NCBI GenBank assembly: GCA_039680785.1 | Contig: JBDKSF010000085.1 | Span: 1 to 50,992, forward strand | Length of the DNA stretch: 50,992 bases | Direction: 5' to 3' | Origin: Candidatus Cloacimonas sp. | Lineage (GTDB): Bacteria > Cloacimonadota > Cloacimonadia > Cloacimonadales > Cloacimonadaceae | In this document: one piece after another, positions 10,288-49,320 of the stretch | How the letters are laid out: every line of letters begins with the position of its first letter | How positions within the stretch are numbered: position 1 is the first letter of the stretch | Translations under genes and position numbers: made by a program | The notes under the pieces: model-generated | The model's input: the letters and a program-made list of their open reading frames with translations, nothing else | Told to the model about the DNA's origin: nothing | Database searches by the model: none

Positions 10288-10899
10288 CTATGAGCAGGAT
10301 TGAGTTATAAAATAACACTGGAGTGTCGAGTCATAGGTCCAAGTAGACCCGTCAGCACTCAAACATGTCCTTCCGCCAGACCCCCCGTAAATATCTATCC
10401 TGTTCGAACTATCTCCAACAGAACTACACCCAAGTGCCCAGCTATAGGATGTTCCAGAAATAAGACCATAGTTTGAGAAATTGAATGTGTAGTCTGTTGC
10501 TGAAGTGCTTACGGAAGCAGCAGACAACGTGTCAGTAGACGTGGCAAGCAGATTGACAGGATCATTTGTAGGGGTGCTGTAAATATATGCTGTTATTGTA
10601 AATGACGGCGATCCTGCTTTTAACAATTTTACCGTTAGTTTAGCCAAAGAATACGAACTACCAGCAGTGAATTTACTTGAGGCATACTTGGTCCCATCGG
10701 AATAACCTAACCATGTAGTTTGCGCTGGGTCGGTAGTAAAACTATCCTTCGTAGGATAACTACACCCAGCAACGCCACTCGACCCGAACCCGGCCATATT
10801 CAAAGCCTCGGCTGGCCGAATAATGTCTCGACTCGGCAGGAACAACCCACCGGCGAAGATGAACGTGGTCGCCTTCTTGATGAAATCTCGTCGGTCCAT
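10288..10899 (-). CDS. Fibre-region protein with Tat-type signal and carbohydrate-binding-like domain
   Basis: 203 residues from the ATG at 10899, which overlaps the stop of the upstream gene (TAATG). Longer upstream starts are possible but uncoupled. The N-terminus, MDRRDFIKKATTFIFAGGLF, is a classical twin-arginine signal (RRxFIK, hydrophobic stretch). The rest is a serine/threonine-rich beta protein (LAKLTVKLLKAG, NLLATSTDTLSA, SGTSYSWALG), like lectin-type choice-of-anchor domains. A Tat leader on a phage fibre-region gene is unexpected. It may be a host exported protein captured by the phage, or a protein sent to the periplasm. The first part of the gene is more GC-rich than the genome average. 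Confidence 0.65.
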   Translation of the reverse strand: MDRRDFIKKATTFIFAGGLFLPSRDIIRPAEALNMAGFGSSGVAGCSYPTKDSFTTDPAQTTWLGYSDGTKYASSKFTAGSSYSLAKLTVKLLKAGSPSFTITAYIYSTPTNDPVNLLATSTDTLSAASVSTSATDYTFNFSNYGLISGTSYSWALGCSSVGDSSNRIDIYGGSGGRTCLSADGSTWTYDSTLQCYFITQSCS

Positions 10900-29571: not shown

Positions 29572-29794
29572 TTTCTATTTCCTTAAGAAACTTTTTAAGT
29601 TCAGGAAAGAATTTATTAATTATCCAGTTAACTGATTCCGTTACATCTGATCTTTCTTCCTCTTTCACCTTTATTATATTAAACTCAGCACAATTTATAG
29701 CCAGAGCTAATTTTTTTAAATCTTCAAGATCATGTTCAATCACTACCCTAAATCCAACAGGTTTTACATCAAGTATTTTTAAAGGAATACTCAT
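29561..29794 (-). CDS. Small hypothetical protein of the head-tail joining region
   Basis: 77 residues, overlapping both neighbours by a few bases. A strand-helix start (KPVGFRVVIEHDLEDLKKLALAINC) is followed by a charged helix. No recognised family. Coupling suggests a structural accessory role. Confidence 0.55.
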   Translation of the reverse strand: MSIPLKILDVKPVGFRVVIEHDLEDLKKLALAINCAEFNIIKVKEEERSDVTESVNWIINKFFPELKKFLKEIENGS

Positions 29795-30348
29795 TTCCAG
29801 GCCCTTTCTATATCATTCATCATTGTATCAACTATGCCAGAATAATTCTGTTCCTCAAATTCATTTAAGGTATTACTAAGAATAGGTCTTGGAAAGTGAT
29901 AACCCCCGCCTTTCGATCTATAATCTCCCCCATATTCAAGTACTGTAGCAATCATAGCAAGAGGTTTACTTTTACCTTTATCAAGATTCCCATACCAACT
30001 CTTACCCCCTGAATCTAATATATTTGCTGGAATACCCCCTACCCACCCACCACGTTCTTGAAACTGGGTCATACTTGCAACTAAATCACCCTTTAACTTC
30101 CAAAAAGGATTAGATCCTAATCCAATTTTGTGTTTCCACTTGGAATACGTTTCTGTATACGGCATAAAAGACCACTTATTTGAAAGAATATTTACTGATA
30201 CTCTATTTGCGTATTCAACAGCACATCTCCTGTTAAATTCACCACCCTTTTCTTTCAACCACCATTTAGCTCGCCACTCTATGCCATCAAGAGCTTTCAC
30301 CCATCTTCTAATATCTTCTTTGTTTAATTCTACAAAGAAACCAATCAT
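29791..30348 (-). CDS. HK97 gp10-like / virion morphogenesis neck protein
   Basis: 185 residues. The C-terminal LEYGGDYRSKGGGYHFPRPILSNTL matches the E-x-G...RPFL..A/T-L end of gp10-like neck and tail completion proteins. The N-terminal part has helix RRWVKALDGIEWRAKWWLKE. It lies between the cargo region and the tail genes and probably takes part in joining head and tail. Confidence 0.7.
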   Translation of the reverse strand: MIGFFVELNKEDIRRWVKALDGIEWRAKWWLKEKGGEFNRRCAVEYANRVSVNILSNKWSFMPYTETYSKWKHKIGLGSNPFWKLKGDLVASMTQFQERGGWVGGIPANILDSGGKSWYGNLDKGKSKPLAMIATVLEYGGDYRSKGGGYHFPRPILSNTLNEFEEQNYSGIVDTMMNDIERAWK

Positions 30349-30351
30349 TGT

Positions 30352-30774
30352 TTATCCTTCTTGCTTTATCCATCCATCAAGTACTTTAATAAACGATAAA
30401 TTTGGCACTTCTTTATATGTTTCAATTCCTAAAGGAACAATCCAAGATCGAAATATTCTTGATGCTAAAAATACTGCTTTTTCTCCATTTTCTTTGGTAA
30501 TATCTTTGAAAAATGTAAGAACATTATAATTAGCTTGTTCCAAATAAATGTTAAGTACTTCAGAAATATCTTTTTCAAACCATTCATTTCCAAACAAATA
30601 TCCCCACCATTTTGTATCTGGAACTTGCTGGATTTCGAGTTCTTCTCTATAGCTGAGAAAAACTACGTTGCAACGAATTTCTTTGCAGGAATCTATAATC
30701 CGTTGCTTGTCATCAAGTGTTTCTTTGTCACCCGGAAACACATAAAGAGTTAACAAATCTATTTTTTGTTCCAT
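30352..30774 (-). CDS. Hypothetical protein next to lysozyme
   Basis: 140 residues. The N-terminal LLTLYVFPGDKETLDDKQRI, then CNVVFLSYREEL, alternates strand and helix as in a partial Rossmann or GT-A core, and TKWWGYLFGNEWFEKDISEVL recalls glycosyltransferase-like segments. No DxD motif is seen. It overlaps the lysozyme gene by 16 bases. I do not recognise it; a degraded or accessory glycan enzyme is one possibility given the adjacent cassette. Confidence 0.5.
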   Translation of the reverse strand: MEQKIDLLTLYVFPGDKETLDDKQRIIDSCKEIRCNVVFLSYREELEIQQVPDTKWWGYLFGNEWFEKDISEVLNIYLEQANYNVLTFFKDITKENGEKAVFLASRIFRSWIVPLGIETYKEVPNLSFIKVLDGWIKQEG

Positions 30775-31235
30775 AATTCAATCTCTGCATTTCTTCTATT
30801 TGTCAAACCTTTGACAGTTCTCCCACCTGCTTTATTCCATCTTAACAATTGAACTGGAACTTCATCATAAAAACCTTGATTCAAAAGTTTAAGTAAAGTG
30901 GAATTTTCAAATGCACTCTTGCCAACATTATATATAAACGATATTAGAGCATCAAATTGATTCTGAGTAATATCCACTTTCACTAAATTATTAACCATAT
31001 TTATAACAGATTCAAGGTCTTGTTGTAACAAAGTTCCAGCTTGATCATAAGTTATTCCATTTTTATATTTGATAAATTCACCATTTATTTTAATCTTGCC
31101 AGATGTTAATTCACTCTTAGTTAACAAATGACCTGTACCTATAGTAGGGAAACCAACAGAGTCTAAATAAACGTGAAGTTTTGTAGCTTCAACATTGATT
31201 AAAAAATTGACTCCATTATTACTTATCCCTTTCAT
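30759..31235 (-). CDS. Endolysin, T4-type lysozyme (GH24)
   Basis: 158 residues. The diagnostic E-x8-D-x5-T triad is exact: Glu16, Asp25, Thr31 in NVEATKLHVYLDSVGFPTIG. ALISFIYNVGKSAFENSTLL and GLTNRRNAEIELW are the other family landmarks. It hydrolyses the MurNAc-GlcNAc bond of peptidoglycan to release progeny. No signal peptide, so a holin should export it. The start overlaps the radical SAM stop (ATGA), placing lysis and glycan enzymes in one coupled run. Confidence 0.92.
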   Translation of the reverse strand: MKGISNNGVNFLINVEATKLHVYLDSVGFPTIGTGHLLTKSELTSGKIKINGEFIKYKNGITYDQAGTLLQQDLESVINMVNNLVKVDITQNQFDALISFIYNVGKSAFENSTLLKLLNQGFYDEVPVQLLRWNKAGGRTVKGLTNRRNAEIELWNKK

Positions 31236-32449
31236 CTTAGTCTTTCCTTATCTTTGTACAAGTCTTCAATCATATCCCTGTACTTAATAAGTTGTTGAGA
31301 AGAAAGTTCCTTTGTCCTTACAGCACATTTATATTGTCCAGGAGTTCCTTTAAACCAAGTTACATTATCATTGTACTCAAATTCAAGACCGAACTTTTCA
31401 GGATCATTGAAAATTGGTGCACCAGGATATGGTTGCAAAATAGAGGTATCAATATCATCTGGTTTTGCCTCTTCTATCCAACTACATGTTTCAACGATTG
31501 TATCTTTTGTTTCTCCAGGTAATCCAACAATAAGAAATGCTTTTGCTCTTATCCCTGCATTATGTAAAAGTTTCACTGCTTTTGTATTTTGTTCCCTTGT
31601 AGTTCCTTTCAAATTCTGTTTTAATACAGTATTTGATCCACTTTCAACTCCTAATCCTACTTCAACTACTCCCATCGCCTTCAATAAGGCACAAGTTTCT
31701 TCATCAAGTAAATGAGTTCTGGAAAAACATCTGAATTTAAGATTCTCATTTTTCAAAAGAAGTACCATTTGTTCAAGTCGTTCTTTATCTGTCGTAAATA
31801 CATCATCAAAAAACATAAAGGCTTTAAACCCAAATACTTCTTTAACATGTAGTATCTCACGAACTGTCCTAAAAGAACTTTGTATTCTACATTTTTTTGT
31901 TACTTTGGCGCAAAAGGAGCAGCTCCAAGGGCAACCTCGTGAAGACATAAGAACAGTTGCAGGTTCACCATCTATGAGGTATTTATAATCTTTTATTGGA
32001 ATAGCAGACCTATCTGGAACAGGTATTTCGAAATTTACATTAAGTGGTTGATCTTCTTTAATCAACCAATCACCATTTGTTTTATTCTTTAAAAGTTTAG
32101 TTAATCCTAATTCCCCTTCTCCTCTAACTACATAATCAAATCCTACTTCTTTACACTCTTCTGACATATGAGTAGCATGAGGACCACCTGCAATAAGTAT
32201 ATGACCACGTTTTTTAAGTTCTTTTGCAATCTTGTATGCTTCAAATCGTTGTGGGGTAGTAATAGAAATACCAACATATTTCGACTTTATTAAATCAGGA
32301 TTAAAACCTTGTAGTCCAACATCAATACATTCAGAGGTCAAATCAAACTTCCTTAGATATGCTGACAAATAGAGTATTCCTAGAGGAGGAAATACTGCTT
32401 GATTCAACAAAAATTCACTTGGGGGAAATATCAAGGTTATATCTTTCAT
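31232..32449 (-). CDS. B12-binding-type radical SAM enzyme
   Basis: 405 residues. Residues 1-125 form a cobalamin-binding-like Rossmann domain (ITLIFPPSEF, YVGISITTPQRFEAYKIAKE, ILIAGGPHATHM, YVVRGEGE). Then comes the radical SAM core with the iron-sulphur motif CPWSCSFC (Cys173, Cys177, Cys180), FFDDVFTTD and VGLGVESGSNTVLK, then LIVGLPGE. Class-B radical SAM enzymes of this design methylate or rearrange unreactive carbons, often in lipids, cofactors or sugars. A full-length one in a phage is rare. Neighbours are methyltransferases and glycosyltransferases with ATGA coupling, so a glycan or lipid substrate is inferred. Confidence 0.88.
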   Translation of the reverse strand: MKDITLIFPPSEFLLNQAVFPPLGILYLSAYLRKFDLTSECIDVGLQGFNPDLIKSKYVGISITTPQRFEAYKIAKELKKRGHILIAGGPHATHMSEECKEVGFDYVVRGEGELGLTKLLKNKTNGDWLIKEDQPLNVNFEIPVPDRSAIPIKDYKYLIDGEPATVLMSSRGCPWSCSFCAKVTKKCRIQSSFRTVREILHVKEVFGFKAFMFFDDVFTTDKERLEQMVLLLKNENLKFRCFSRTHLLDEETCALLKAMGVVEVGLGVESGSNTVLKQNLKGTTREQNTKAVKLLHNAGIRAKAFLIVGLPGETKDTIVETCSWIEEAKPDDIDTSILQPYPGAPIFNDPEKFGLEFEYNDNVTWFKGTPGQYKCAVRTKELSSQQLIKYRDMIEDLYKDKERLR

Positions 32450-33195
32450 AGTCCTTTTTTCAACTCCTCTCTATAAAGATCACAAGCGTTTTGAGGATTA
32501 ACATCATCCATCAAAAAATCGTCTGTGATTATTTGATGTGAAATACTACCTTTGTACCAAAAACTAAGATCACCTGGTCTTTCTTCTCCATTTAGTGCTA
32601 ACATAGGAAGTACCCAATCATCAAGACCTTTCAAATATTCAAGAAAACCATACTTTGGCCAAAACATTAAAGTGGGTTCAGCAAAATCATTTCTCAAACT
32701 CAATATCCATTTATGGCAATGTGCCCCGCGCCAAAATCCAGTAACACCACATCGTTCTAAGCCTTCTTCAGTGAATTGACTACCTCTTTCAAGTTCTATA
32801 TATTTACTCGGAACACTCACAAATCCTTGTTTGGCAATTGATGTTAAAAATGATATACCAAAACTAGGTTCAGGTACATGTTCAAGAACATGACAACAAA
32901 TAGCAAAATCAAATTTACCATTCTTTAATACGTCATCTTTTATAGCATCCCAAGTAAAAGGATTACCAATATCAGCTTGAAAATATCCCGCCTTTTTAAA
33001 ATCATCATCATATGTATGTGGATCATTTATAGCTACATAATCCTTTTCCAGAAGATCAACATAATGAGTAACATACTTTCTTGCCCACGGATGAAGTATT
33101 CCACCAACATCAAGAACTCTTGGATATTTGGCTTGTTCTAAATGAGCTAGAACTTTCGCTTTTTGATTAAAACGATTTCGAAAATCATAAATCAT
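32446..33195 (-). CDS. SAM-dependent methyltransferase (paralogue 1 of 3)
   Basis: 249 residues, with AAAGGTG upstream. Class I methyltransferase motif I is RVLDVGGILHPWA (about 25-37), followed by VTHYVDLLEKDYVA, a motif-IV-like KFDFAICCHVLEHVPEP (about 94-110) and QGFVSVPSKYIE. It shares these blocks in the same order with the proteins at 35523 and 36223 (each has VDVGG/LDVGG, P-W/V-A, VTH-Y/C, a DF-x-IC-x-x-LED/LEH run). Sugar or other small-molecule methylation is likely from the setting; the substrate is unknown. Confidence 0.8.
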   Translation of the reverse strand: MIYDFRNRFNQKAKVLAHLEQAKYPRVLDVGGILHPWARKYVTHYVDLLEKDYVAINDPHTYDDDFKKAGYFQADIGNPFTWDAIKDDVLKNGKFDFAICCHVLEHVPEPSFGISFLTSIAKQGFVSVPSKYIELERGSQFTEEGLERCGVTGFWRGAHCHKWILSLRNDFAEPTLMFWPKYGFLEYLKGLDDWVLPMLALNGEERPGDLSFWYKGSISHQIITDDFLMDDVNPQNACDLYREELKKGL

Positions 33196-33210
33196 TTCAT
33201 TACACCTTTC

Positions 33211-34302
33211 TTAAAAAGGAATTTCTACACTTCCAAATCTTTTGCCTTCGTTTACTATCTTATCAAAAAACCAATCATATCGTTCTGCCATTAACTGTGC
33301 AGTAAACTTTTCAAGGAATTGATTTCTGCAATCTTCTCTATTAATTTGATCTATCTTCTGAAGCAAAGGAACACCCTTTTCAAGTATTTCCTGTTCATCA
33401 TTTGAATCATAGTAGTTCAAAAAGAAACCATGTTTTCCATTTTCAATTATTCGATCAAGTTTAATAGCACAATCTTGATTTATCCTGTTAAATCCAATAA
33501 TAGGAGTTCCCATTGCCAATGCTTCAATATTTGTTATTCCAAAATGTTCTTTCCAAGAATTGTCATTTGCAGAGATAAACACTTTGGCTCTTGACATAAT
33601 CTTATATTTTTGTTCATCATTTACACCACGAACCCAAAATACATTTGGATTGTCTAGAAAAGGACCAACTTCTTTCCAAAAAGAACCTGTATTATAAGGT
33701 GGTCCCATTATTACAATTTTCATATCAGAAGCAAGAGCAAGTTTGATTGCCAAACCGGGGGCTTTTCCCCCTTCTATCTTACCTAGCCAAACTGCATATC
33801 CATCATGCTCAGAGGAAAACTTATACAAATCTTCAGGTATTCCATAATGTATTACAGTAGAATGTATCCCATGTAACATGAAATCACTTTGCAAGACTTT
33901 TGAACAAGATACAATGTTAAAAGAAGGATTAGTATTTTGAAAAGTTCCATGACACCACTTACACCAAGGAAACTCAACATATCCAGGAAATGCAAATTGA
34001 CAATCAGGATCCCACCCTTCTCCAAAATACCCACAAAAATATAGATCAAAATTTATATCAGGATGCCTTGAAAGGTAATCTTTCACTGCCTCGTAATGAA
34101 CATCCCGTTTATTTTCAAGTGCAGAAGTTGGAATATAATCTTTTATACCTATACCAGTAAAGTCTGAACCTTCTCTTGCAAACACATACACTTCATGTCC
34201 GAGTTTCACAAGTGATTCGATAAGATAAAAAATCATTCTTTCGCCACTATATGCTACATGGCGACCCATGGGATAAACATTTCCGGTCATTGCAATCTTC
34301 AT
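33211..34302 (-). CDS. GT4-type glycosyltransferase
   Basis: 363 residues. GT-B fold signs are GNVYPMGRHVAYSGERMIFYL at the N-terminus (nucleotide-sugar acceptor domain) and, in the C-terminal domain, AVWLGKIEGGKAPGLAIKLA and EHFGITNIEALAMGTPIIGF (about 268-287), the E-x7-E block that binds the sugar donor. It transfers a sugar from a nucleotide sugar onto a cellular or phage acceptor. It is part of the cargo cassette, directly followed by the methyltransferase at 33195. Confidence 0.85.
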   Translation of the reverse strand: MKIAMTGNVYPMGRHVAYSGERMIFYLIESLVKLGHEVYVFAREGSDFTGIGIKDYIPTSALENKRDVHYEAVKDYLSRHPDINFDLYFCGYFGEGWDPDCQFAFPGYVEFPWCKWCHGTFQNTNPSFNIVSCSKVLQSDFMLHGIHSTVIHYGIPEDLYKFSSEHDGYAVWLGKIEGGKAPGLAIKLALASDMKIVIMGPPYNTGSFWKEVGPFLDNPNVFWVRGVNDEQKYKIMSRAKVFISANDNSWKEHFGITNIEALAMGTPIIGFNRINQDCAIKLDRIIENGKHGFFLNYYDSNDEQEILEKGVPLLQKIDQINREDCRNQFLEKFTAQLMAERYDWFFDKIVNEGKRFGSVEIPF

Positions 34303-34304
34303 AA

Positions 34305-34700
34305 CTATCCTTTCAAAAAAGGTTTCACCAATGCATCAAATTCTTCTGCGGTGATTTTACTACTACTAGACGATCTTATTGAATCTTCTTGAAAATCATG
34401 GGTGGAAATCTCTAAAATAACAGAGTCAACTATACCGGTAAACCTGTGATCTATTCCAGGCAAAATAGTTACTTGATCTCCTTGTTTAGATAAAACAATT
34501 AGTTTAGATGGAAAAGAAATAGGATCTTTGCTTCCTAGTTCTAACAAAACTATTCCACTATCCAAAATAAATGTTTCTTTTTTTATCTCATGGTGATGTA
34601 TACTACATCTGTATTGATGTTGAAGGTATAGTTTTTTAAAACAGTACTCCCGTTCATTTACTAAAATATCTTCACATCCCCACACTTTATGAGCAATCAT
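34305..34700 (-). CDS. Cupin-fold protein (sugar isomerase/epimerase-like)
   Basis: 131 residues from ATG 34700, one base after the previous stop. A longer reading overlaps the neighbour and is rejected. It starts HKVWGCEDILVNEREYCFK, then CSIHHHEIKKETFILDSG (metal-binding HHH plus E), then QVTILPGIDHRFTG, the two cupin motifs as in mannose-6-phosphate isomerase type II and related sugar-phosphate enzymes. It could supply or modify sugars for the glycosyltransferases around it. Exact reaction unknown. Confidence 0.75.
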   Translation of the reverse strand: MIAHKVWGCEDILVNEREYCFKKLYLQHQYRCSIHHHEIKKETFILDSGIVLLELGSKDPISFPSKLIVLSKQGDQVTILPGIDHRFTGIVDSVILEISTHDFQEDSIRSSSSSKITAEEFDALVKPFLKG

Positions 34701-34701
34701 A

Positions 34702-35526
34702 TTAAACTCCGCGAACATCACAAGGATATGCAATACCTCCGCACTGTCTAACATAAGCAAAAACATCATCATATGGTAATTTATTTAGTTGAGCAAAAAG
34801 TCCAGATTTATAACACCCCCAACTAAAAATCATATAACTTTTATATTGTATTGGTGGATAGAACACTTTATCTGGACCAGCCATTATTCCAAATATATGT
34901 TCAAGCCAGGGGCATCTTCTATATTTATCTCCATACTTTCCATAAAGATATTCATCACTCATCAAACATTTTATAACTTCCGGGAAATCGAATTTTTCTT
35001 GTTTACAAATAAAGAAGCGAGTACTAGCCCATCTATAATCCCACTTATTATCTTCATCGGGAGAAGGACTCCAATAAGAAGGATAACTAATATAATCGTA
35101 CCTATCACTGTCAAGCAAATGCAACCAACTAGAAATAATCCCGTTAGGATCTTTTCCAAAAATTGCCATGTCACCGTCGAAATGTACGACATATTTTCCC
35201 TTTGCCATTGATAATGCCTGAATATAATTCAAATCATTATATTTTGGGAAGTATGCACCTCTAAATTGTTCATTATGTGGACTAATAACAAGTTTCATTT
35301 TCTCAGGACAGGATTCAATTATTCTATTCCAATCATTGAATCCTTCATGTACATCAACAAATTGTATTAATTCAATACTTGGGTAATCTTTAAAAAAGTT
35401 ATATTTATTCCAAACACTTTCAACTAAAAAATCCAAATTCCTTGTACCTTCAAATTGTTTCCCTTGAATAGAAACATCTTTATTGAAACCTGGTCTAGTG
35501 TCAGTATTTATTACAATACTTATCAT
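34702..35526 (-). CDS. GT-A-type glycosyltransferase
   Basis: 274 residues. It begins ISIVINTDTRPG and carries a DxD-like metal motif in KYVVHFDGDMAIFG (about residues 110-123), with ALSMAKGKY just before, as in GT2-like inverting enzymes. The C-terminal part is aromatic (YKSYMIFSWGCYKS). It is coupled to the methyltransferase upstream (ATGA) and the cupin downstream. Donor and acceptor unknown. Confidence 0.75.
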   Translation of the reverse strand: MISIVINTDTRPGFNKDVSIQGKQFEGTRNLDFLVESVWNKYNFFKDYPSIELIQFVDVHEGFNDWNRIIESCPEKMKLVISPHNEQFRGAYFPKYNDLNYIQALSMAKGKYVVHFDGDMAIFGKDPNGIISSWLHLLDSDRYDYISYPSYWSPSPDEDNKWDYRWASTRFFICKQEKFDFPEVIKCLMSDEYLYGKYGDKYRRCPWLEHIFGIMAGPDKVFYPPIQYKSYMIFSWGCYKSGLFAQLNKLPYDDVFAYVRQCGGIAYPCDVRGV

Positions 35527-36221
35527 AAACCTTTCTCCAATAAATCTCTGTAGTATCCAAATACTGAGGGGGGATTAGGGCCAAGAAAATCATCATTCAC
35601 AATTTCAAAAGGGATCGAATCTTCCCAAAAGAAAGCAAGCTCTTGACAACCATTATCAGATTGATCAAGTACATTTTCCAAGCCTTGTATGTGTTCAACA
35701 AAGTTTAGCTTAGGAAAAAGATACAACCTTCCATCATCTATTGTAAATATCCAACGATGATGAAAGTAACCTCTATATGGACTTTTCAATTGCCATTCAT
35801 TTTGTATTTCAACAGAGCGAATTTCTACAAAACTAAGTTCACGATATTTGACAGGAACAGTGATAAATCCTTGTTTTGCTATCTTTGGTAAATTACGAAG
35901 TGCTACAGTGGGATCTCTTATGTCTTCAAGTGTCTGTGAACATATAACAAAATCAAAAGGATCAAATTGTTTCATACAATCCCATGTCTCCTGCCTACAA
36001 ATATCCCCTTCAATAAAAATTGAACTAAGAAATTGAGGAGAATGAAATTCAGGACCACATACTTCTTGTGGATCATTTATATCAAGATAATGAGTTACAA
36101 CATCCCTTGCCCAAGGATACAATGCTCCCCCAACATCAAGCACTCGTTTGTATCCTTTACTTTTGATAAAACTTATGCATTCATCACGTAACAGAATTTT
36201 GTTTTCTGCCTTGATTATCAT
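35523..36221 (-). CDS. SAM-dependent methyltransferase (paralogue 2 of 3)
   Basis: 232 residues. RVLDVGGALYPWARDVVTHY (about 25-44), then DPFDFVICSQTLEDIRDP and KQGFITVPVKYRE, then a C-terminal PFEIVNDDFLGPNPP shared with the 36223 paralogue (PFEIFNDDFMGPDGG). The close block match with its neighbours shows local duplication. It likely methylates the same class of substrate at another position, or acts as a partner subunit. Confidence 0.8.
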   Translation of the reverse strand: MIIKAENKILLRDECISFIKSKGYKRVLDVGGALYPWARDVVTHYLDINDPQEVCGPEFHSPQFLSSIFIEGDICRQETWDCMKQFDPFDFVICSQTLEDIRDPTVALRNLPKIAKQGFITVPVKYRELSFVEIRSVEIQNEWQLKSPYRGYFHHRWIFTIDDGRLYLFPKLNFVEHIQGLENVLDQSDNGCQELAFFWEDSIPFEIVNDDFLGPNPPSVFGYYRDLLEKGL

Positions 36222-36222
36222 T

Positions 36223-36909
36223 TTAATATCCCTTTATGATTTCTGTTCCCCAAGCTTTCATGTAAGTTCCACCATCTGGTCCCATGAAATCATCATTAAA
36301 AATCTCAAAAGGGATATCATCTTTCCACCAAAAAGAAAGTTCATGGAAATGAGCATCTTTGTTTTCTCTAGTAGCCCATTCAAGTCCATTTATGTACTCA
36401 ATGAAATTTAGTTTTGGAAACAATCTGAGTTTGTAATTAAGAATAGTTAAAATCCACCTATGATGAAAATACCCTCGATATTTACCCCCACCTATTCCCC
36501 AAGCAGCTTGATCTTCAGGAGTTCCACATTCTATACCCCTACATATCTCTGCGTGTTTACTTGGAAAAGAAACAAATCCCATATGAGAAATTTGTGGCAA
36601 CATTTGCAAAACAAGTGCAGGATTTGCTATATCTTCAAGTACATGAGTACATATAGAAAAATCAAACTTGCCAGTAAATGCTACAATGCTTCGAATATTA
36701 TCCCAATCCCTTTGCGTTGAAATATCTGCTTTAAGAAATTTACACTCATATCTTTTTGGCTGATTGATATCTATGCAATGAGTAACATAAGGACTAGCCC
36801 AAACATTCAGTCCCCCACCTACATCAACTATGGACTTAAATTTTCTATTGCAGAGAAATTCAAATACAGCATTACGACCATCAGACTTATCTTTGATATC
36901 GTAAATCAT
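36223..36909 (-). CDS. SAM-dependent methyltransferase (paralogue 3 of 3)
   Basis: 228 residues. SIVDVGGGLNVWASPYVTHC (about 30-49), KFDFSICTHVLEDIANP (about 87-103), then MGFVSFPSKHAEICRG and HHRWILTILNYKLRLFPKLN. The last block also occurs in paralogue 2 (HHRWIFTI, then LYLFPKLNFVEH), so 2 and 3 are closest. The start overlaps the stop of the gene before it (ATGA). Confidence 0.8.
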   Translation of the reverse strand: MIYDIKDKSDGRNAVFEFLCNRKFKSIVDVGGGLNVWASPYVTHCIDINQPKRYECKFLKADISTQRDWDNIRSIVAFTGKFDFSICTHVLEDIANPALVLQMLPQISHMGFVSFPSKHAEICRGIECGTPEDQAAWGIGGGKYRGYFHHRWILTILNYKLRLFPKLNFIEYINGLEWATRENKDAHFHELSFWWKDDIPFEIFNDDFMGPDGGTYMKAWGTEIIKGY

Positions 36910-37211
36910 CGGACTTTCTCCATAATAGAATCTTGAAGTTCACTCAAAGAATAAAACCCTTTATTTGAATCATATATAAAATTAGGTTTTATCTCTTCTC
37001 CAGTCATGGGATGAAATCTAATATCAAGTGGAAATTCATAAAGTATTCCAAAATCCCATCTTGATGTTTCTGGGGTTTGAAATATTCCCATTTTCACTGC
37101 ATCTTCATCTGATATATTTTCGATTGAATCCATTCTGTCAGCGTAGCAAAAGTTAGGTTTCTCTTCTGCTCTGACAGCCCGGCCGCACGATTTACATACA
37201 TAAACTGTCAT
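36906..37211 (-). CDS. Zinc-ribbon-start hypothetical protein
   Basis: 101 residues from ATG 37211, which overlaps the upstream stop (ATGA) behind AGAGGATA. VYVCKSCGRAVRAEEKPNFC at the N-terminus gives a three-cysteine ribbon-like site, followed by a region ending GEEIKPNFIYDSNKGFYS. Function unknown. Position between methyltransferases suggests an accessory to the cassette. Confidence 0.6.
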   Translation of the reverse strand: MTVYVCKSCGRAVRAEEKPNFCYADRMDSIENISDEDAVKMGIFQTPETSRWDFGILYEFPLDIRFHPMTGEEIKPNFIYDSNKGFYSLSELQDSIMEKVR

Positions 37212-37921
37212 TTTATCCTCTTTAAACAACCAGCAAAGTTTGGGTTTTCTAAATGTTTGAAATGCCAAGAGTCATTATCCTCTTCCAAATTATATTTGTT
37301 TACAAACTCAATTGCTTTATCCCAGTTGATATGAACTGGTTCATAATATCCAGTATCGACCAAGTATTCGTATGCCATCCCTGGAGCAATATAATTTCCC
37401 ATAAAATCATGAAAGAAAAGAAGTCCATCTACCATGACTTGTTCCATCAACATCTTTACTTCTTGCATAATAAGTTCCAGTTGATGGTCATCTGAATCAA
37501 GAAACACATAGCTAAAAGAACGTGGAGTTTTTAGATAAGTCAAAGAAGTTTCTCCATATAATGTATGATGTAATGAAGAAACACTTTGCAACTTATTCAA
37601 AAGGTTTTTCTTAAAATCTAGTTCCCTACATATTCCCCAAGGCATATTATCTGCTGTCTTCTGAAACGTATTTGCCCATTCTTTTTCATTATTTAGATCA
37701 TAAACAGGATCTACACAATGAAAAACATCCATACGATTCAAAGCAGATAGTGCTGATGTTCCAATCAAAGAAGACTTGCCTGCATTGGAACCTAAATCAA
37801 CAGCAATACCGACAGAGCATTTAAGGTTATTCATAATGGTATCAAATACCCCAAATGCTTCTGTCATTGATATTGCTCCAGGTGTCTTCTGCACTATTTT
37901 CAACAATTCAAGAACACCCAT
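37208..37921 (-). CDS. SAM-dependent methyltransferase (class I, MTF_24-like)
   Basis: 237 residues. Motif I IAVDLGSNAGKSS (about 39-51), an acidic end of strand 2 (VFHCVDPVYDL), and motif IV FSYVFLDSDDHQLELIMQEV followed by DGLLFFHDF. This is a different subfamily from the three paralogues, resembling methyltransferases of sugar and natural product clusters that carry the D-x-D-H region for metal binding. Substrate unknown. Confidence 0.75.
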   Translation of the reverse strand: MGVLELLKIVQKTPGAISMTEAFGVFDTIMNNLKCSVGIAVDLGSNAGKSSLIGTSALSALNRMDVFHCVDPVYDLNNEKEWANTFQKTADNMPWGICRELDFKKNLLNKLQSVSSLHHTLYGETSLTYLKTPRSFSYVFLDSDDHQLELIMQEVKMLMEQVMVDGLLFFHDFMGNYIAPGMAYEYLVDTGYYEPVHINWDKAIEFVNKYNLEEDNDSWHFKHLENPNFAGCLKRIK

Positions 37922-38172
37922 TACTTCCCCTTTAAATACATAACCACTGCACCAACTAAAACACCAACATTAGATATTACAATTTGACGAAATTCAGGAA
38001 TCCAGTAACTAATCATACCAGTAGCAATAAGCAAAATAGCAGCACCACCAAACAGAATAAGGGCATGATTATTATCTGTACTTATAACCTCGCCGAGTTG
38101 CACTGCCTTAGCTGTCTCAGCTTTAGAATCAGCTTTAGTTTGATCCAATATTTGTTCAGGGGTGTCTGCCAT
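37921..38172 (-). CDS. Two-pass small membrane protein, holin candidate
   Basis: 83 residues, with GGAGAAG upstream. Two hydrophobic helices (ALILFGGAAILLIATGMISY, about 36-55, and VISNVGVLVGAVVMYL, about 65-80) follow a polar N-terminus. Small size, two helices and location in a membrane-protein cluster make it a holin candidate for the GH24 lysozyme; this is inference. The stop overlaps the next start (TAATG). Confidence 0.6.
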   Translation of the reverse strand: MADTPEQILDQTKADSKAETAKAVQLGEVISTDNNHALILFGGAAILLIATGMISYWIPEFRQIVISNVGVLVGAVVMYLKGK

Positions 38173-38180
38173 GTCTTCTC

Positions 38181-38348
38181 CTATTTGAAATAGCTTTCTG
38201 GGTCCTTTGCTACAAGTGCCTTAAGTTCTGCAATCTGTTCAGCGGTGAAAGTCATATCCTTCTTGTTAATCAAATCAATCAAACTGATTACAAGAGGCAC
38301 ACCTTGGGTTACTGCGAGTTGAATAAATATAGGAATCAATGCTTCCAT
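38181..38348 (-). CDS. Small amphipathic protein (55 aa)
   Basis: ATG 38348 follows GTAGGAGG, a near-perfect ribosome site. 55 codons end at TAG 38181-38183, whose bases also form part of the next gene's ribosome site. The hydrophobic first half (IPIFIQLAVTQGVPLVISLI) and the polar second half (FTAEQIAELKALVAKDPESY) suggest a membrane-associated protein. It lies between the holin candidate and the lipoprotein. Confidence 0.7.
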   Translation of the reverse strand: MEALIPIFIQLAVTQGVPLVISLIDLINKKDMTFTAEQIAELKALVAKDPESYFK

Positions 38349-38357
38349 AAAATCCTC

Positions 38358-38756
38358 CTACTTCGTTGAATTAAGAATTTGCAAAGCAGTAATTGCCGCT
38401 ACTTGAGCAGTAGCTTCCCCAATTTTTGTCTGTACTGCAAGTTTATTTGCAGCGGTTGGTGATTTAGAATACAACACAAGAGCATCTACTGCTTCCTCAT
38501 ACTTTGCCTTATAAATTGTTGCAACGGCTACTGCTTTTACTTTATTCTCTTCCGAAAACTGACCTGCTTTGTACATTGTACCAATAGCAGTCATGCCTTT
38601 ATCATATGCTTGACCAGCAACAGACAAAGCGTTGTAGCTATTAGTGATAAAATCCTGATCTGCTCCTGCTGTGGTAGTTGTTCCTGTGTTTGCACATCCA
38701 ATCAACATCAACACCATTACCAATACAGCAAAAGATTTACTTATGTTCCTTTTCAT
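38358..38756 (-). CDS. Phage lipoprotein
   Basis: 132 residues, with AAAAGGAG upstream. The N-terminus MKRNISKSFAVLVMVLMLIG, then Cys21, is a clear lipobox (LIGC), so the mature protein should be anchored in a membrane by a lipid. The mature part is an Ala/Lys-rich helical domain (TTTTAGADQDFITNSYNA, then AVATIYKAKYEEAV). It could be an outer spanin-like lysis factor or a superinfection-exclusion lipoprotein. Coupling to the 38753 membrane protein (ATGA) favours a pair. Confidence 0.75.
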   Translation of the reverse strand: MKRNISKSFAVLVMVLMLIGCANTGTTTTAGADQDFITNSYNALSVAGQAYDKGMTAIGTMYKAGQFSEENKVKAVAVATIYKAKYEEAVDALVLYSKSPTAANKLAVQTKIGEATAQVAAITALQILNSTK

Positions 38757-39229
38757 AATTTACTCCTTTTTACAACCTCAATGAAATTTAGATCAAGTTT
38801 TGCAGTTAAAGCAACAATTGCTTCATGAGTCCTTTGGTTACATTCTCTCAACTCCTTTATATCTATTTTAGCTTCATTTATGTAGTCTTGTAAATTCTCC
38901 ATTCTATCACCAAATCCCTCAGTTTTTATTCCTTGTCTATCTCTACAATCAATTCTAATCCTTTCACAACTTGCGACCTTCATGTAAAGCCTGTCATTTC
39001 TTATTTGATTTGCCAGCCACCCAAATAAGAAAGATGCTACTGTAACTACTCCAGTTATAATAGCAAAAGCAGGCAAATGAAGATGTTCAGACATTTCTCC
39101 ATTTTCTGCTGCTGCCAACAAAATCTCTACTGCAACACCCAATGAAAAAATCCCACATAGAAAGACTAACCTTACACCTTTAAAAAGTTTAACCAAGTTC
39201 TGTAACTCCTTTCTATTGGGAAGATTCAT
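38753..39229 (-). CDS. Two-pass membrane protein with C-terminal coiled coil
   Basis: 158 residues from ATG 39229, which overlaps the previous stop (TAATG). Two transmembrane helices (VRLVFLCGIFSLGVAVEILL and FAIITGVVTVASFLFGWLA) are followed by a helical, charged tail (MENLQDYINEAKIDIKEL). Together with the lipoprotein downstream it may be a lysis or membrane-remodelling pair, though a classical inner spanin has one helix. Alternatively it is another holin. Confidence 0.6.
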   Translation of the reverse strand: MNLPNRKELQNLVKLFKGVRLVFLCGIFSLGVAVEILLAAAENGEMSEHLHLPAFAIITGVVTVASFLFGWLANQIRNDRLYMKVASCERIRIDCRDRQGIKTEGFGDRMENLQDYINEAKIDIKELRECNQRTHEAIVALTAKLDLNFIEVVKRSKL

Positions 39230-39966
39230 TACCAACTTGCACCATTCTTCCAATAAAATGGATTTAAATATTTATGTAATTCAGGTTTTATACTTGTTTC
39301 AAATATATCAAAAGGTAATCCAAGTTCTTTCCTTCTAGCTTGAGAACGAAGCCATTTTTTTTCAATTCTTTCTCTGTCCCTATAATCATCCTTTTCATAA
39401 TGAATAATATCAGCTTCAATATTCTCATTAGACTTTGCCCCAATCATAATGTGATGAGGGGAATTGACCCATCTTAATTCAAAATTCTTTCTTATTAACC
39501 TACATTGAAAATCAGGGTATTGACCAATCTGATGTGATTCAATTGGCCACCCATCTTCTCCAATCATAGCAAAAGGTGTATTTTCATAACGAAGAGGTTC
39601 AATAGTTCGCCTAGAAAAGTGAATTGTATCAGTAGTAAAAGAATATAATCCCTTATCAATATCAGAAAGTACTTGTTTAAGTTCTGGTGACATTCTTTCA
39701 TCAAAATCAAGGATCATAGCTATTTGCTTATGTGGAATATAAGATAAGCAAATATTCGATTGTGTAACTTCCATATCATGGAAACTATCAATCCAGCAAT
39801 GCTGATACACTTCTACTTTAGAAAACTGTCTCAATTCTTGAACTGTGTAATCGGTAGAGCAACCATCAATCACAATTATTCTTTCTACCCATTCTTCATC
39901 ATGAAAATCACTTATACACCTATTTACTAATCGTTCTTCGTTCAGTCCCTTCATGAGTACCAACAT
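39229..39966 (-). CDS. GT2-family glycosyltransferase
   Basis: 245 residues. GT-A signs are an IIVIDGCSTDYTVQEL block (about 29-44, the donor-binding DGxSxD), a metal-binding ILDFDERMS (about 84-92) and QCRLIRKNFELRWVNSPHH near 154-172. It resembles small GT2 enzymes that glycosylate lipids or surface glycans. It lies directly after the GT4-GT9 fusion. Confidence 0.82.
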   Translation of the reverse strand: MLVLMKGLNEERLVNRCISDFHDEEWVERIIVIDGCSTDYTVQELRQFSKVEVYQHCWIDSFHDMEVTQSNICLSYIPHKQIAMILDFDERMSPELKQVLSDIDKGLYSFTTDTIHFSRRTIEPLRYENTPFAMIGEDGWPIESHQIGQYPDFQCRLIRKNFELRWVNSPHHIMIGAKSNENIEADIIHYEKDDYRDRERIEKKWLRSQARRKELGLPFDIFETSIKPELHKYLNPFYWKNGASW

Positions 39967-39969
39967 GAT

Positions 39970-42051
39970 TTATCTCCCTAACAATTCTTGCACTGCTTTT
40001 TTAACTCTTGCCGGATGTATTGTATTGATACAAGGTGTATTACAAGGCTTTTTTCCAGGTTGGCCCCAGCAGTTTGAAGTGATTGGACACACATCAAGCT
40101 TATTCGATTCAAGTAGAATTGACTTTGCTCCATATTGCATTCTTGGTTGTGTCACTCTTGCAGGGGCAGGTCCGAATATTGCAACAGTATTAATGCCTAA
40201 GGCGCCAGCTAAATGCATTGGAAAACTATCTACACATACAGCGATATTTGCATTAGACATTATCCAAGCTGTTTCTCGCCAAGTAAGTTTACCTCTAAAA
40301 TCAAGACTTGCAGAACGAACAGGCCAATCAGAGGTATGGCCTACCTGAATGATAAATAGATCAAGTCCTTTTAGTGCTATATCAAGATGTTTATACATTC
40401 GATATACAGGTTGTCCACCTGTGGTATGTACAACACAAATAGGCAACTGGTGTTTATCTTGCTTTTTTATTTCTTCAGAAAGATTAAATTCTGGTTCTTT
40501 ATATTTTATTGTAATGAAATCTGGTTCTACTTTTGTAAAGTAAGGATAAAGACTATGAAGAGTTACATCAAGATTGTTCCATCCCCCAGGTAATATCTTT
40601 TCTCCATGAGGATTATAAACTACTTCATATTCCTTTAGTTTTTTATCATCCCATTCAATTATTTCATCTATATATGAATTTCCTTGAACAATATCAGAAA
40701 ATAACTTTTGTGTCATATAAATAAGGGGTGTATTTGGATGCCTTTCTTTTATTCCCTTAAAACATTGAGTGCTCATCAGCACATCACCTGCACTGCTATG
40801 TTGTGCAAACAATACACCCTTCTTTTTACTTACATCACTAAAAGACTTACCTGTGGGTGTGAGATTTTCAAAAAGAGCATTTATACTAGATGCCCCATCC
40901 AACCAATCTTGTGCTTTCTCTATTCCTTTCTTTCCTATTTCAAATCTCTCTTCTGGAGACATTTCAATCATTTCAATCATTGCTTGTCCTAAATCTTTAA
41001 CAGAGCAAGCTTTTGTTTCAACATATGCTTGACCATATGCAGTCATGACAGAAAGATAAGAAATTTCATCACATTTTACTAATCTGCCAATATTTTTTAG
41101 AAGTTCTGGATGTGCTGTAGTATCAGAAGCAATAACAGGTGTACCACATAGCATTGCATTCAATACTGTCCAACTTAGTCCTTCTTGAAAAGAGCAATTA
41201 ACAAGACAATCTATTCCGTTAAAGACTTTTACCATATCCTCTTCAGCTAAAGGGGGACCATTTTTCTTTGCTGATATAGTTCCTGTTTTTATTTTGTAGT
41301 CTTGAACTAGAGACTGAATATTAAAAATACCTTCAATATCCGTATGAAGATATAAATATGCCTCTTTCTTTTGTGGGGATACAATTTCACCAAAAGCTTT
41401 TAAAATTCTTGGCGGATCTTTTCGTACTTGATTTTTACCTACAAATCCAAAAATGAAAAGATCATCATTTTCTTCACCGCCGAGTAAATTCTTTTTAATT
41501 AATTTTTTTTCCTCTTCAGAAAGTGGGATATACATATCTGAATCAGCAAGACGCGGTCTAAAATAACGTAATTTTGGAACACTGTCCTTTAATATATTAT
41601 ACCCATATTCACTGTACACACAAGGAATATCAAAGAAATTAATCCAATTCACCCAATCAAGTCTCAATTCATTAAGATCATATGGAAATATACTAGAATA
41701 AGTAATATTATTTCTATTTCTGTATTCGTGTAATTGATTAAAAATATAACCATATCTCCAAATATCTAGTCCTACAATTACCATTGCATCATATTTAAAC
41801 TTATAAAGTAATTCTACTACTTGATTCCCACCATATATTTCTTCATTGAAAGGAACATAAGGAATTAATTTATAAGGAAGATTTTCAGGAATAGAAGAAT
41901 TTACGAAGTGTGCTTTTGTAGGTAGTAAAACACCAAAACAAGATATTTCAAATCTGGAATAATCTACTTCACTAAGAAGGGAACGCATCATGTTCCCATT
42001 ACCACTAAAAGAATATGGATGATCCCCCACTAAAAGAATACGTTTCTTCAC
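39970..42051 (-). CDS. Two-domain glycosyltransferase, GT4 fused to GT9 (heptosyltransferase-like)
   Basis: 693 residues with a GTG start behind GGAGGAAG. N-terminal half: GT4 (ILLVGDHPYSFSGNGNMMRS; FIFGFVGKNQVRKDPPRILK, about 199-218; FQEGLSWTVLNAMLCGTPVI, about 285-304). Second half from about residue 410: GT9 ADP-heptose-type transferase (GVLFAQHSSAGDVLMSTQCF; ICVVHTTGGQ; NIAVCVDSFPMHLAGALGI, about 613-631; TVAIFGPA). The fused form lets one protein transfer two sugars in series. The region ends with a cysteine-rich CNTPC. GT9 enzymes normally build lipopolysaccharide core, so this phage protein may alter host surface glycans or a virion glycan. Confidence 0.85.
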   Translation of the reverse strand: MKKRILLVGDHPYSFSGNGNMMRSLLSEVDYSRFEISCFGVLLPTKAHFVNSSIPENLPYKLIPYVPFNEEIYGGNQVVELLYKFKYDAMVIVGLDIWRYGYIFNQLHEYRNRNNITYSSIFPYDLNELRLDWVNWINFFDIPCVYSEYGYNILKDSVPKLRYFRPRLADSDMYIPLSEEEKKLIKKNLLGGEENDDLFIFGFVGKNQVRKDPPRILKAFGEIVSPQKKEAYLYLHTDIEGIFNIQSLVQDYKIKTGTISAKKNGPPLAEEDMVKVFNGIDCLVNCSFQEGLSWTVLNAMLCGTPVIASDTTAHPELLKNIGRLVKCDEISYLSVMTAYGQAYVETKACSVKDLGQAMIEMIEMSPEERFEIGKKGIEKAQDWLDGASSINALFENLTPTGKSFSDVSKKKGVLFAQHSSAGDVLMSTQCFKGIKERHPNTPLIYMTQKLFSDIVQGNSYIDEIIEWDDKKLKEYEVVYNPHGEKILPGGWNNLDVTLHSLYPYFTKVEPDFITIKYKEPEFNLSEEIKKQDKHQLPICVVHTTGGQPVYRMYKHLDIALKGLDLFIIQVGHTSDWPVRSASLDFRGKLTWRETAWIMSNANIAVCVDSFPMHLAGALGINTVAIFGPAPARVTQPRMQYGAKSILLESNKLDVCPITSNCWGQPGKKPCNTPCINTIHPARVKKAVQELLGR

Positions 42052-42095: not shown

Positions 42096-42722
42096 TTATT
42101 CCCGTGTATCTTCTTCAACTGTTACAACGTCTATACCACTTGAAGTTCTTTTCTTAACGATTGTAACTTTTAAATATTCCCCACTAACAGGAACATATCT
42201 GTCAAGAACTTTGATACCATAACTACTTGGAATGTATAACTCGTCTCTTACGAGATTTAACTGAGCGAAGTCCTGTTCATTTAATTCATTTCCAAACAAC
42301 GATTCTGTCAATAATCCATAAGCACTAACCTTAACTGTATTCCAAGTTGTTTTTTCTTGGTACGTTTGTGAATAAGTTTCACCTGACATTTCTGTTACTG
42401 CAGGTCTTTGTAACTCCCCAGAAACATTTGCCCTATAGAACACACAATTGTACTTGTAAATTTGATTCTCTAAATCTATCCCTTGTTTATTGACAACGAT
42501 ATAATCAGAATTGAGAGGGGTTATATGAACTACATCACCTGGAACAACTATCGAATCATATGAAATTTCTGTTTCAAGAAAAAACTCAAGAATGAAAGGC
42601 TTTGTTGCTTGCTTATTTGGCTTTAATCTTAGATATTCTCCAGACAATACAGTGTCACGAATTACAGTGAAAGATGACCCAACCTCTTCTAATATTTCTT
42701 TTATATCGGGTCCAATTGACAC
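42096..42722 (-). CDS. Neck/connector region structural protein
   Basis: 208 residues with a GTG start behind AGAGGATT. Beta-rich, with VLSGEYLRLKPNK, NVSGELQRPAVTEMSGETYS and PVSGEYLKVTIVKK, so the SGE tripeptide recurs four times. The context (after connector genes, before the cargo) suggests a stopper or head-tail joining protein, but the family is not recognised. Confidence 0.55.
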   Translation of the reverse strand: MSIGPDIKEILEEVGSSFTVIRDTVLSGEYLRLKPNKQATKPFILEFFLETEISYDSIVVPGDVVHITPLNSDYIVVNKQGIDLENQIYKYNCVFYRANVSGELQRPAVTEMSGETYSQTYQEKTTWNTVKVSAYGLLTESLFGNELNEQDFAQLNLVRDELYIPSSYGIKVLDRYVPVSGEYLKVTIVKKRTSSGIDVVTVEEDTRE

Positions 42723-43486: not shown

Positions 43487-43972
43487 TTAATTGGTGGGTT
43501 CTACTTCTACTATGATACAAATATTATGCATCTTAGTAGCGGGAGAAGTTTCTCCATTGTAGACAAAATCCCAAGTGAACACATCACCTTCAGTAAACGA
43601 ATTTGCAGTGTGATCAACAACACCATATCTTATACCAGTATCAGCAGCACTTGCAAAAGTCGTTTTCTGTGCTGACAATTCACCTGAAATCGCACCAATT
43701 CTAGGATTAGTTGTCAAACAACTTGTACCGTTGATCTTTACATCAACTTCCCCACTTACGTATACAGCGGTGTCTCGTTTTCCACAACCAAGTGCTGACA
43801 TGTAAACATCAACAACCTTGCCGGGAAAACGTGCTACTCCAAGAGGCATCCCTCTCTGAGTAACAACCACTTCACCTGAGATAGTACCCACAAACGGGGG
43901 AAATACCTCATTTGCTACTTGCTGGGGGAAGTTGACCGGAAGTGGAAAATACGGTCTTCTTTGATTAGGCAT
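43487..43972 (-). CDS. Beta-rich minor capsid/decoration candidate
   Basis: 161 residues, with AAGGGGGAA upstream. It has three SGE-bearing strands in series: GTISGEVVVTQRG, YVSGEVDVKINGTSC and AISGELSAQK. The pattern and the position right after the major capsid gene suit a jelly-roll-like decoration or minor capsid protein. No family recognised. Confidence 0.55.
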   Translation of the reverse strand: MPNQRRPYFPLPVNFPQQVANEVFPPFVGTISGEVVVTQRGMPLGVARFPGKVVDVYMSALGCGKRDTAVYVSGEVDVKINGTSCLTTNPRIGAISGELSAQKTTFASAADTGIRYGVVDHTANSFTEGDVFTWDFVYNGETSPATKMHNICIIVEVEPTN

Positions 43973-49293: not shown

Positions 49294-49320
49294 AAAAACC
49301 TCTATCATCAACAGGTTTTT
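49294..49320 (-). terminator. Hairpin after the terminase gene
   Basis: AAAAACCT and AGGTTTTT (49313-49320 and 49294-49301) pair over 8 bp around an 11-base loop, and the - strand transcript ends in a TTTTT run, fitting an intrinsic terminator. It overlaps the terminase stop codon. Being A/T-rich it may be leaky and only attenuate. Confidence 0.6.

Follow-up and report, generated by a model that had tools for sequence, protein, structure and literature searches.

Contig C85, a siphovirus-type phage sequence placed in a 2.07 Mb metagenome-assembled genome (MAG), was analysed over its whole length of 50,992 bases, which is referred to here as the window. The subject of this work is a run of enzyme genes on its minus strand (31232-42051), headed by a GT4-GT9 fusion glycosyltransferase and situated between head and tail genes. 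This run is probably a modular late island of an uncultured siphovirus lineage, which builds and decorates a glycan on virion proteins in the cytoplasm. The enzyme classes, the fixed slot, the fixed core with its variable payload, the lack of multi-span membrane enzymes and the long co-inheritance with virion genes are directly supported by the data. There are few experimentally supported cases of virion glycosylation by phage enzymes. Here, it would be a standing, lineage-wide and modular trait of uncultured phages, with a natural series of one to about 14 genes and the unusual design of a fixed core and a variable payload across an uncultured lineage.

Conservation of the slot in related phages

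Relatives were collected by scanning IMG/VR with the fusion protein, the GT2 glycosyltransferase and the radical S-adenosylmethionine (SAM) enzyme (rSAM) of the window, which gave dozens of contigs. Open reading frames (ORFs) were predicted on all relatives and labelled with profiles built from the window's genes. The gene of the GT4-GT9 fusion, which is the fixed first gene of the island (39970..42051, minus strand; Pfam Glycos_transf_1 2e-10, Glyco_transf_9 2e-7), was found in 68 distinct IMG/VR contigs. It directly follows orf208 in 57 of the 65 contigs with upstream sequence and lies within four genes of it in 6 others. This left boundary of the slot (42096..42722, minus strand) appears from its position to be a head-connector-type core gene and occurs in relatives with and without the cassette. 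On the other side, the island ends at tail genes in all 31 contigs that reach this far, with o140 as the boundary in 27 and o185 in 4. In the window, o140 and o185 (29791..30774, minus strand) are located where tail-completion-type genes would be expected, and o185 has a weak PHROG match to 'tail completion or Neck1'. As a side observation, the island extends to the other side of the fixed gene in L126, L145, L152 and also L143, where orf208 and the fusion are separated by two or three additional genes; a cupin-like gene is among these in the first three contigs.

The order of genes within the island is also constrained. The GT2 gene, usually the second one, comes third at the latest in 24 of the 25 multi-gene islands, and the rSAM gene, where present, is the last gene of at least 100 amino acids (AA) in 11 of the 12 closed cassettes. 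The size of the islands forms a series from the fusion alone (L155, L156, L168) over the fusion with one methyltransferase up to about 14 genes. In four relatives (L004, L010, L012 and L013), the flanking genes are the same and the slot between them holds nothing, and the empty site is therefore known. The recurrence of these genes at one position across dozens of independent contigs excludes a chance arrangement. A preliminary description, made from the window alone, had proposed a late, coupled glycan-modification cassette in the virion operon, positioned between connector and tail genes on one strand. This placement is the same in the window and its relatives and is supported by the slot position in the latter. 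The relatives were also checked for scattered or early genes, and the set was found in the same late slot instead. Searching other phages for the gene set revealed the fusion in this slot of the 68 IMG/VR contigs and no match to the fusion, GT2 or MT_C in GenBank phages.

According to Pfam, the commoner payload clusters comprise methyltransferases, GT8, GT2 and GT4 types, radical SAM enzymes and polysaccharide pyruvyl transferases, followed by sulfotransferase-like proteins, GDP-mannose dehydratases/epimerases, DegT-type aminotransferases and carbamoyltransferases, with homing endonucleases as passengers. Judged by these families, the payload is sugar-tailoring chemistry. Homing endonucleases of the HNH and GIY-YIG types lie beside the fusion inside the island in three contigs (L016:3605-4084, L117:12030-12881, L037:6590-7414) and are a possible vehicle of payload exchange. 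Of 299 payload proteins with at least 100 AA, 289 have no predicted membrane span, nine have one and a single one has four, the last being a short transporter-like protein of L045. No multi-span membrane enzyme of the flippase, polymerase or oligosaccharyltransferase kind was detected by the hydropathy count in the payload of 65 cassettes. Neither the hydropathy of the 299 proteins nor the Pfam families of the commoner clusters revealed an initiating phosphoglycosyltransferase, flippase or polymerase. With a payload that is almost free of membrane spans, a lipid-linked O-antigen pathway is not encoded, and the product would most simply be cytoplasmic and built on a soluble acceptor.

The pairwise distances of the fusion correlate with those of orf208 (r 0.81, n=56) and o185 (0.84, n=31), and also with those of GT2 (0.74, n=42) and the capsid protein (0.55, n=47); for these four comparisons, 0 of 999 permutations gave a correlation as high. 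The distances of rSAM do not track those of the capsid protein (0.06, n=14). In the capsid-protein tree, contigs lacking the fusion form two clades amid fusion-positive ones, implying losses or separate gains, and the fusion-only contigs form one clade. The guanine-cytosine (GC) content and the third-position GC (GC3) of the cassette resemble those of neighbouring late genes. The distance tracking, the capsid-protein tree and the GC data indicate that the fusion is old and stably inherited in the lineage, and that the payload behind it is more exchangeable.

Enzymes and other genes of the island in the window

All genes described in this section are on the minus strand. The ten enzymes listed by the preliminary description, namely four glycosyltransferases including the two-domain fusion, four methyltransferases, a cupin and a B12-type radical SAM enzyme, are all present. 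This inventory was right as far as it went, and the stretch additionally contains two membrane proteins, a lipoprotein and the small gene orf120, which had not been mentioned.

The AlphaFold2 model of the fusion, with a predicted local distance difference test (pLDDT) score of 89.8, consists of two glycosyltransferase folds. Among the matches listed, the best PDB fold for the GT4 half is 3oy2, the chlorovirus NY-2A protein B736L, with a Z-score of 36.5 over 367 residues, followed by the next match at 33.0. B736L is also the best PDB sequence match of this half, and since the identity is 16%, the two share a similar fold and are not close relatives. The GT9 half meets the broad Pfam GT9 cut-off, and its best scores against the NCBIfam models for heptosyltransferase I, II and III are 41, 38 and 32 bits, compared to cut-offs of 170, 185 and 135. 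Near the C-terminus of the fusion there are four invariant cysteines.

The GT2 glycosyltransferase (39229..39966) matches PF00535 with 8e-5, just below the cut-off, and a PHROG glycosyltransferase with 4e-9; its alignment has 23 rows. A GT4 glycosyltransferase (33211..34302; Pfam 9e-11) is located further along the island. The remaining glycosyltransferase is a protein of 274 AA (34702-35526) for which no match in Pfam, NCBIfam or the PDB sequences was found, and a comparison of its profile with the GT2 family showed no similarity. In an aligned set of 14 relatives, its DxD motif (HFDGD; D117 and D119) is invariant. Its AlphaFold2 model has a pLDDT of 88, and each of the 50 PDB matches listed either is a glycosyltransferase or contains a domain of this type, with Z-scores between 11 and 13. 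Going by the modelled fold, this protein is a GT-A glycosyltransferase, and on this basis the count of four glycosyltransferases and four methyltransferases stands.

Three of the four methyltransferases are paralogues, with 37-42% identity to MT_C: MT_A (32446..33195; Methyltransf_23, Pfam 2e-6), MT_B (35523..36221) and the Methyltransf_23-like MT_C itself (36223..36909). The fourth is of the Methyltransf_24 type (MT24; 37208..37921), with a Pfam match of 2e-5 just below the cut-off and homologues in other cassettes. These methyltransferases presumably act on sugars. The cupin (34305..34772) matches PHROG_7851 'cysteine dioxygenase' with 3e-24 and has weak Pfam matches to Lyx_isomer and MannoseP_isomer. 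Its listed start lies 71 bases inside the preceding gene, and the true start is probably located further in.

The rSAM enzyme (31232..32449; Radical_SAM 1e-26, B12-binding 1e-12) has an invariant CxxxCxxC motif in addition to the B12-binding domain, as in class B B12-dependent radical SAM methyltransferases. Its nearest solved relatives are AprD4 (1e-17), which is named a radical SAM diol-dehydratase, and OxsB (4e-15). When compared to the curated NCBIfam subfamilies, it did not reach any cut-off. By analogy to AprD4 and to C-methylating relatives, it may catalyse the C-methylation or the deoxygenation of a sugar.

A small membrane protein (38753..39253) with two hydrophobic segments and a coiled-coil-like tail is lysis-like and non-glycan, and has no useful family match. 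It is followed by a lipoprotein (38358..38756) with a signal sequence and a lipobox (LIGC) in a spanin-like position, whose weak PHROG matches include an Rz-like spanin with an E-value of 0.06, and by a small holin-like protein (37921..38172) with two hydrophobic segments and no family match. A phage lysozyme (30759..31235; PF00959 2e-40) just outside the island overlaps the rSAM gene by four bases. Lysis-type genes are therefore interleaved with the cassette, three within the stretch and the lysozyme gene directly behind it. The small payload ORF orf120 (36906..37268) is conserved in the window and four relatives (cluster 10). Its start is uncertain, as the listed one overlaps the preceding gene by 61 bases.

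The genes are tightly coupled, as had been described, although the ATGA type of coupling is less common than claimed: between orf208 and the lysozyme gene there are 15 junctions, of which only 5 are 4-base overlaps, one is a TAATG, one is a gap of 185 bases and most others are gaps of a few bases. Promoter-like sites showed no excess over shuffled sequences and terminator-like sites were only slightly above them, and for this reason no internal transcription boundary is claimed. From its position in the operon, the cassette is likely to be expressed late. The comparison to an O-antigen-type pathway fits poorly, since there is no sugar-nucleotide, flippase, polymerase or ligase gene in the window.

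Proposed mechanism and alternative explanations

In the proposed mechanism, the GT4-GT9 fusion is made together with the head and tail proteins and would prime an abundant virion protein with the first one or two sugars. The chain could subsequently be extended by GT2 and the other soluble glycosyltransferases, and the exchangeable genes would tailor the glycan, in the window through the four methyltransferases, the radical SAM step and the cupin as a putative epimerase or isomerase-like enzyme. Sugar donors would be supplied by the host, and with virion assembly taking place in the same compartment, membrane export would be unnecessary. The modification may serve to shield or alter the particle surface under diversifying selection. 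Of the two targets that had been suggested for the cassette, capsid or tail proteins, with a candidate acceptor discussed below, are the best-supported branch. Alteration of the host surface is less supported in view of the missing multi-span membrane enzymes, which leaves room for a peripheral activity on the core of lipopolysaccharide (LPS).

Several points weigh against virion glycosylation. The GT9 and GT4 families also hold soluble LPS-core enzymes that do not need a flippase, membrane spans were predicted by a simple hydropathy count, and the co-inheritance of the fusion with virion genes may merely reflect vertical inheritance of the whole phage. In addition, the candidate acceptor o161 is absent from 14 of the 57 distinct fusion-positive contigs, including all fusion-only ones.

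WaaG, a GT4 enzyme, and the heptosyltransferases of GT9 act on the LPS core, and such soluble or peripheral enzymes need no flippase. For this reason, a late change of the host envelope has to be considered, in which the fusion and the soluble glycosyltransferases would modify the LPS core at the inner membrane face and a host exporter would export the product. The altered core would block superinfection or keep progeny off debris. This would be consistent with the fusion combining two families of LPS-core enzymes, with the weak resemblance of its GT9 half to the NCBIfam heptosyltransferase I, II and III models, far below their cut-offs, and with the presence of WaaG among the fold matches listed for the GT4 half. 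Nevertheless, this explanation, although the strongest competitor of virion glycosylation, is unlikely. All closed islands sit within the virion operon, and the fusion has persisted throughout a deeply diverged lineage, whose members probably have different hosts and hence different LPS cores. Furthermore, a surface change this late, alongside lysis genes, has little time to act, and the hydropathy count detected no gtrABC-type multi-span membrane gene in any island.

Alternatively, unrelated 'moron' genes might pile up as mixed cargo at a site between head and tail modules that tolerates insertions, without forming a single pathway. The variable payload, the entry of lysis genes and homing endonucleases into the slot and the empty slot of some relatives would be in line with such an accumulation. 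It is highly unlikely given the constrained gene order described above, in which the fusion leads, GT2 is third at the latest and rSAM closes the island, the recognised payload, which is overwhelmingly glycan chemistry, and the persistence of the fusion on its own.

A third possibility is DNA hypermodification, in which the glycosyltransferases and methyltransferases would decorate modified bases as a protection against restriction. The payload includes pyruvyl, carbamoyl and sulfo tailoring, none of which is, to our knowledge, known for DNA. Despite the reported glycosylation of DNA by phage glycosyltransferases (Pyle et al. 2024, cited in PMC12619734) and the thymidylate-synthase-like gene in the window (877-1797), this explanation is most improbable, because the thymidylate-synthase family, the only base-modifying enzyme searched for, was not found in the records of 20 relatives (16 other fusion-positive and four fusion-negative ones, many of them fragments), and because the gene set lies among head and tail genes, whereas base modification is needed at replication.

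Returning to glycosylation of the virion, it is conceivable, and put forward here only tentatively, that this island plays the part of an O-antigen locus for the virus. The fixed enzyme would prime the capsid, and the exchangeable tailoring set would give each strain its own particle serotype under diversifying selection, e.g. by surface-binding defences, grazers or competing phages. The series of islands makes the question of the priming enzyme and its acceptor testable with one recombinant protein pair. The islands are also a source of soluble glycosyltransferases and sugar-tailoring enzymes that are yet to be characterised and would work without membrane carriers.

Candidate acceptors

The likeliest acceptor would be the capsid protein or o161, a candidate decoration protein encoded directly after the major capsid gene (43487..43972, minus strand); the tail tube is another possibility. 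The o161 gene was found in 43 of the 57 fusion-positive contigs compared to none of the 11 fusion-negative ones. Islands are larger in o161-bearing contigs (Mann-Whitney p 0.0005, or 0.004 after collapsing o161-negative lineages, with neither value fully corrected for relatedness). The option of o161 as the sole acceptor was rejected, since the fusion-only phages lack it and it therefore cannot be the only one.

The post-capsid proteins of five relatives (L148, L161, L017, L011 and L013) share a short N-terminal GP(F/W/Y)P-like motif with o161 of the window, whereas their outer parts are unrelated. Several of the contigs without o161 encode such an unrelated protein in its place. For those of L148, L161, L017 and L013, no homology to o161 was found beyond a short N-terminal GPWP-like motif. 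This suggests that the post-capsid site serves head decoration, with an anchor that stays constant and an outer part that varies. In L121, a relative of 73.7 kb, two large ORFs (668 and 484 AA) without an assigned function lie between o161 and o151 (L121:3765-9966). Separately, the window contains tail-fibre-like genes at 10288-12419 with a G+C content near 0.49, compared to 0.31-0.37 in the surroundings. Part of a 506-AA protein encoded there has 44% identity over 124 AA to the post-capsid protein of L013, as if one fibre module served head and tail.

The phage and its distribution

The plus strand of the window carries early-type genes up to about 10 kb, including a RecA, a flap exonuclease, a phosphoesterase and the thymidylate-synthase-like gene, whose protein matches PF00303 with 2e-12 over part of its length. 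The late operon on the minus strand comprises, in this order, the terminase, portal, S49 protease, capsid protein (Phage_cap_E family) and connectors, then the cassette, and after it the lysozyme, tail tube, tape measure and tail hub. The terminase large subunit (49320-50992) is seemingly truncated at the right end of the contig, which means that the phage genome is either incomplete or was linearised at this point.

The phage lineage is uncultured and has no cultured member. Among 50,697 GenBank phage records, no match was found by terminase, fusion, GT2 or MT_C, the last three being searched with tblastn at 1e-5 and without a profile comparison for remote kinship. The capsid protein has only a partial match of 26% in GenBank phages. 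The MAG contains no 16S gene, and the binning of a phage contig in a MAG is weak evidence of its host. In the order of the host MAG, 1 of 107 genomes had a match to the fusion, which is the window itself, and no match could be confirmed when 84,980 species were screened with fusion motifs, a result that is motif-limited and weak as a negative. The scan of named bacterial genomes with rSAM identified only two phage contigs of one Sulfuricurvum MAG and one distant Bathyarchaeota gene. As a weak hint at a host group, one Sulfuricurvum MAG includes both L172 and L173, which are different contigs of this phage type.

Comparison with known systems

Streptomyces phage SF3 is the only GenBank phage with a detectable relative of rSAM (22% identity over 84%). 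Its B12-binding radical SAM protein is encoded beside thymidylate kinase and NUDIX genes, in a neighbourhood where glycosyltransferases are not annotated. O-antigen and LPS-core clusters share with the island the constant ends, the variable middle of glycosyltransferases and tailoring enzymes, and the GT4 and GT9 families. They differ in that no initiating phosphoglycosyltransferase, flippase, polymerase or ligase was seen in the island, and in that the island sits in a phage late operon.

In chloroviruses, the virus's own cytoplasmic multi-domain glycosyltransferases and sugar methyltransferases act on the capsid protein Vp54, e.g. A064R of PBCV-1 (PMC7019647). The closest structure to the GT4 half of the fusion among the matches listed, B736L, also comes from this group. 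Since the acceptor of B736L itself is unknown (PMC9614988), this likeness is a pointer only, and chloroviruses are eukaryotic viruses.

Corndog, a cluster O mycobacteriophage, encodes an O-methyltransferase, two glycosyltransferases and an N-acetylglucosaminyltransferase (gp35-gp38) within its structural operon (PMC4351075). A role in the modification of the capsid and the tail tube was proposed for such enzymes and has later been reported (Freeman et al. 2023, cited in PMC11600133). Both systems combine soluble glycosyltransferases with one or more sugar-type methyltransferases in tandem in the structural operon, with the substrates of the methyltransferases in the present case being presumed ones. 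The four Corndog genes lie between portal and protease, whereas the island lies between head connectors and tail genes and has a GT4-GT9 fusion core with a payload from none to about 14 genes, including radical SAM, pyruvyl, sulfo and carbamoyl enzymes. The tblastn search at 1e-5, which does not reach remote kinship, gave no match of the fusion, GT2 or MT_C to Corndog or any other GenBank phage. No paper on this gene set was found within a partial coverage of the literature. The preliminary description was therefore correct that the exact set had not been described, although the kind of system had been, as Corndog shows. The island would work like the virion glycosylation sets already known from phages and chloroviruses, and differs from them in the fixed fusion core, the modular payload, the constant slot and the lineage, which is unmatched by terminase, fusion, GT2 or MT_C among GenBank phages.

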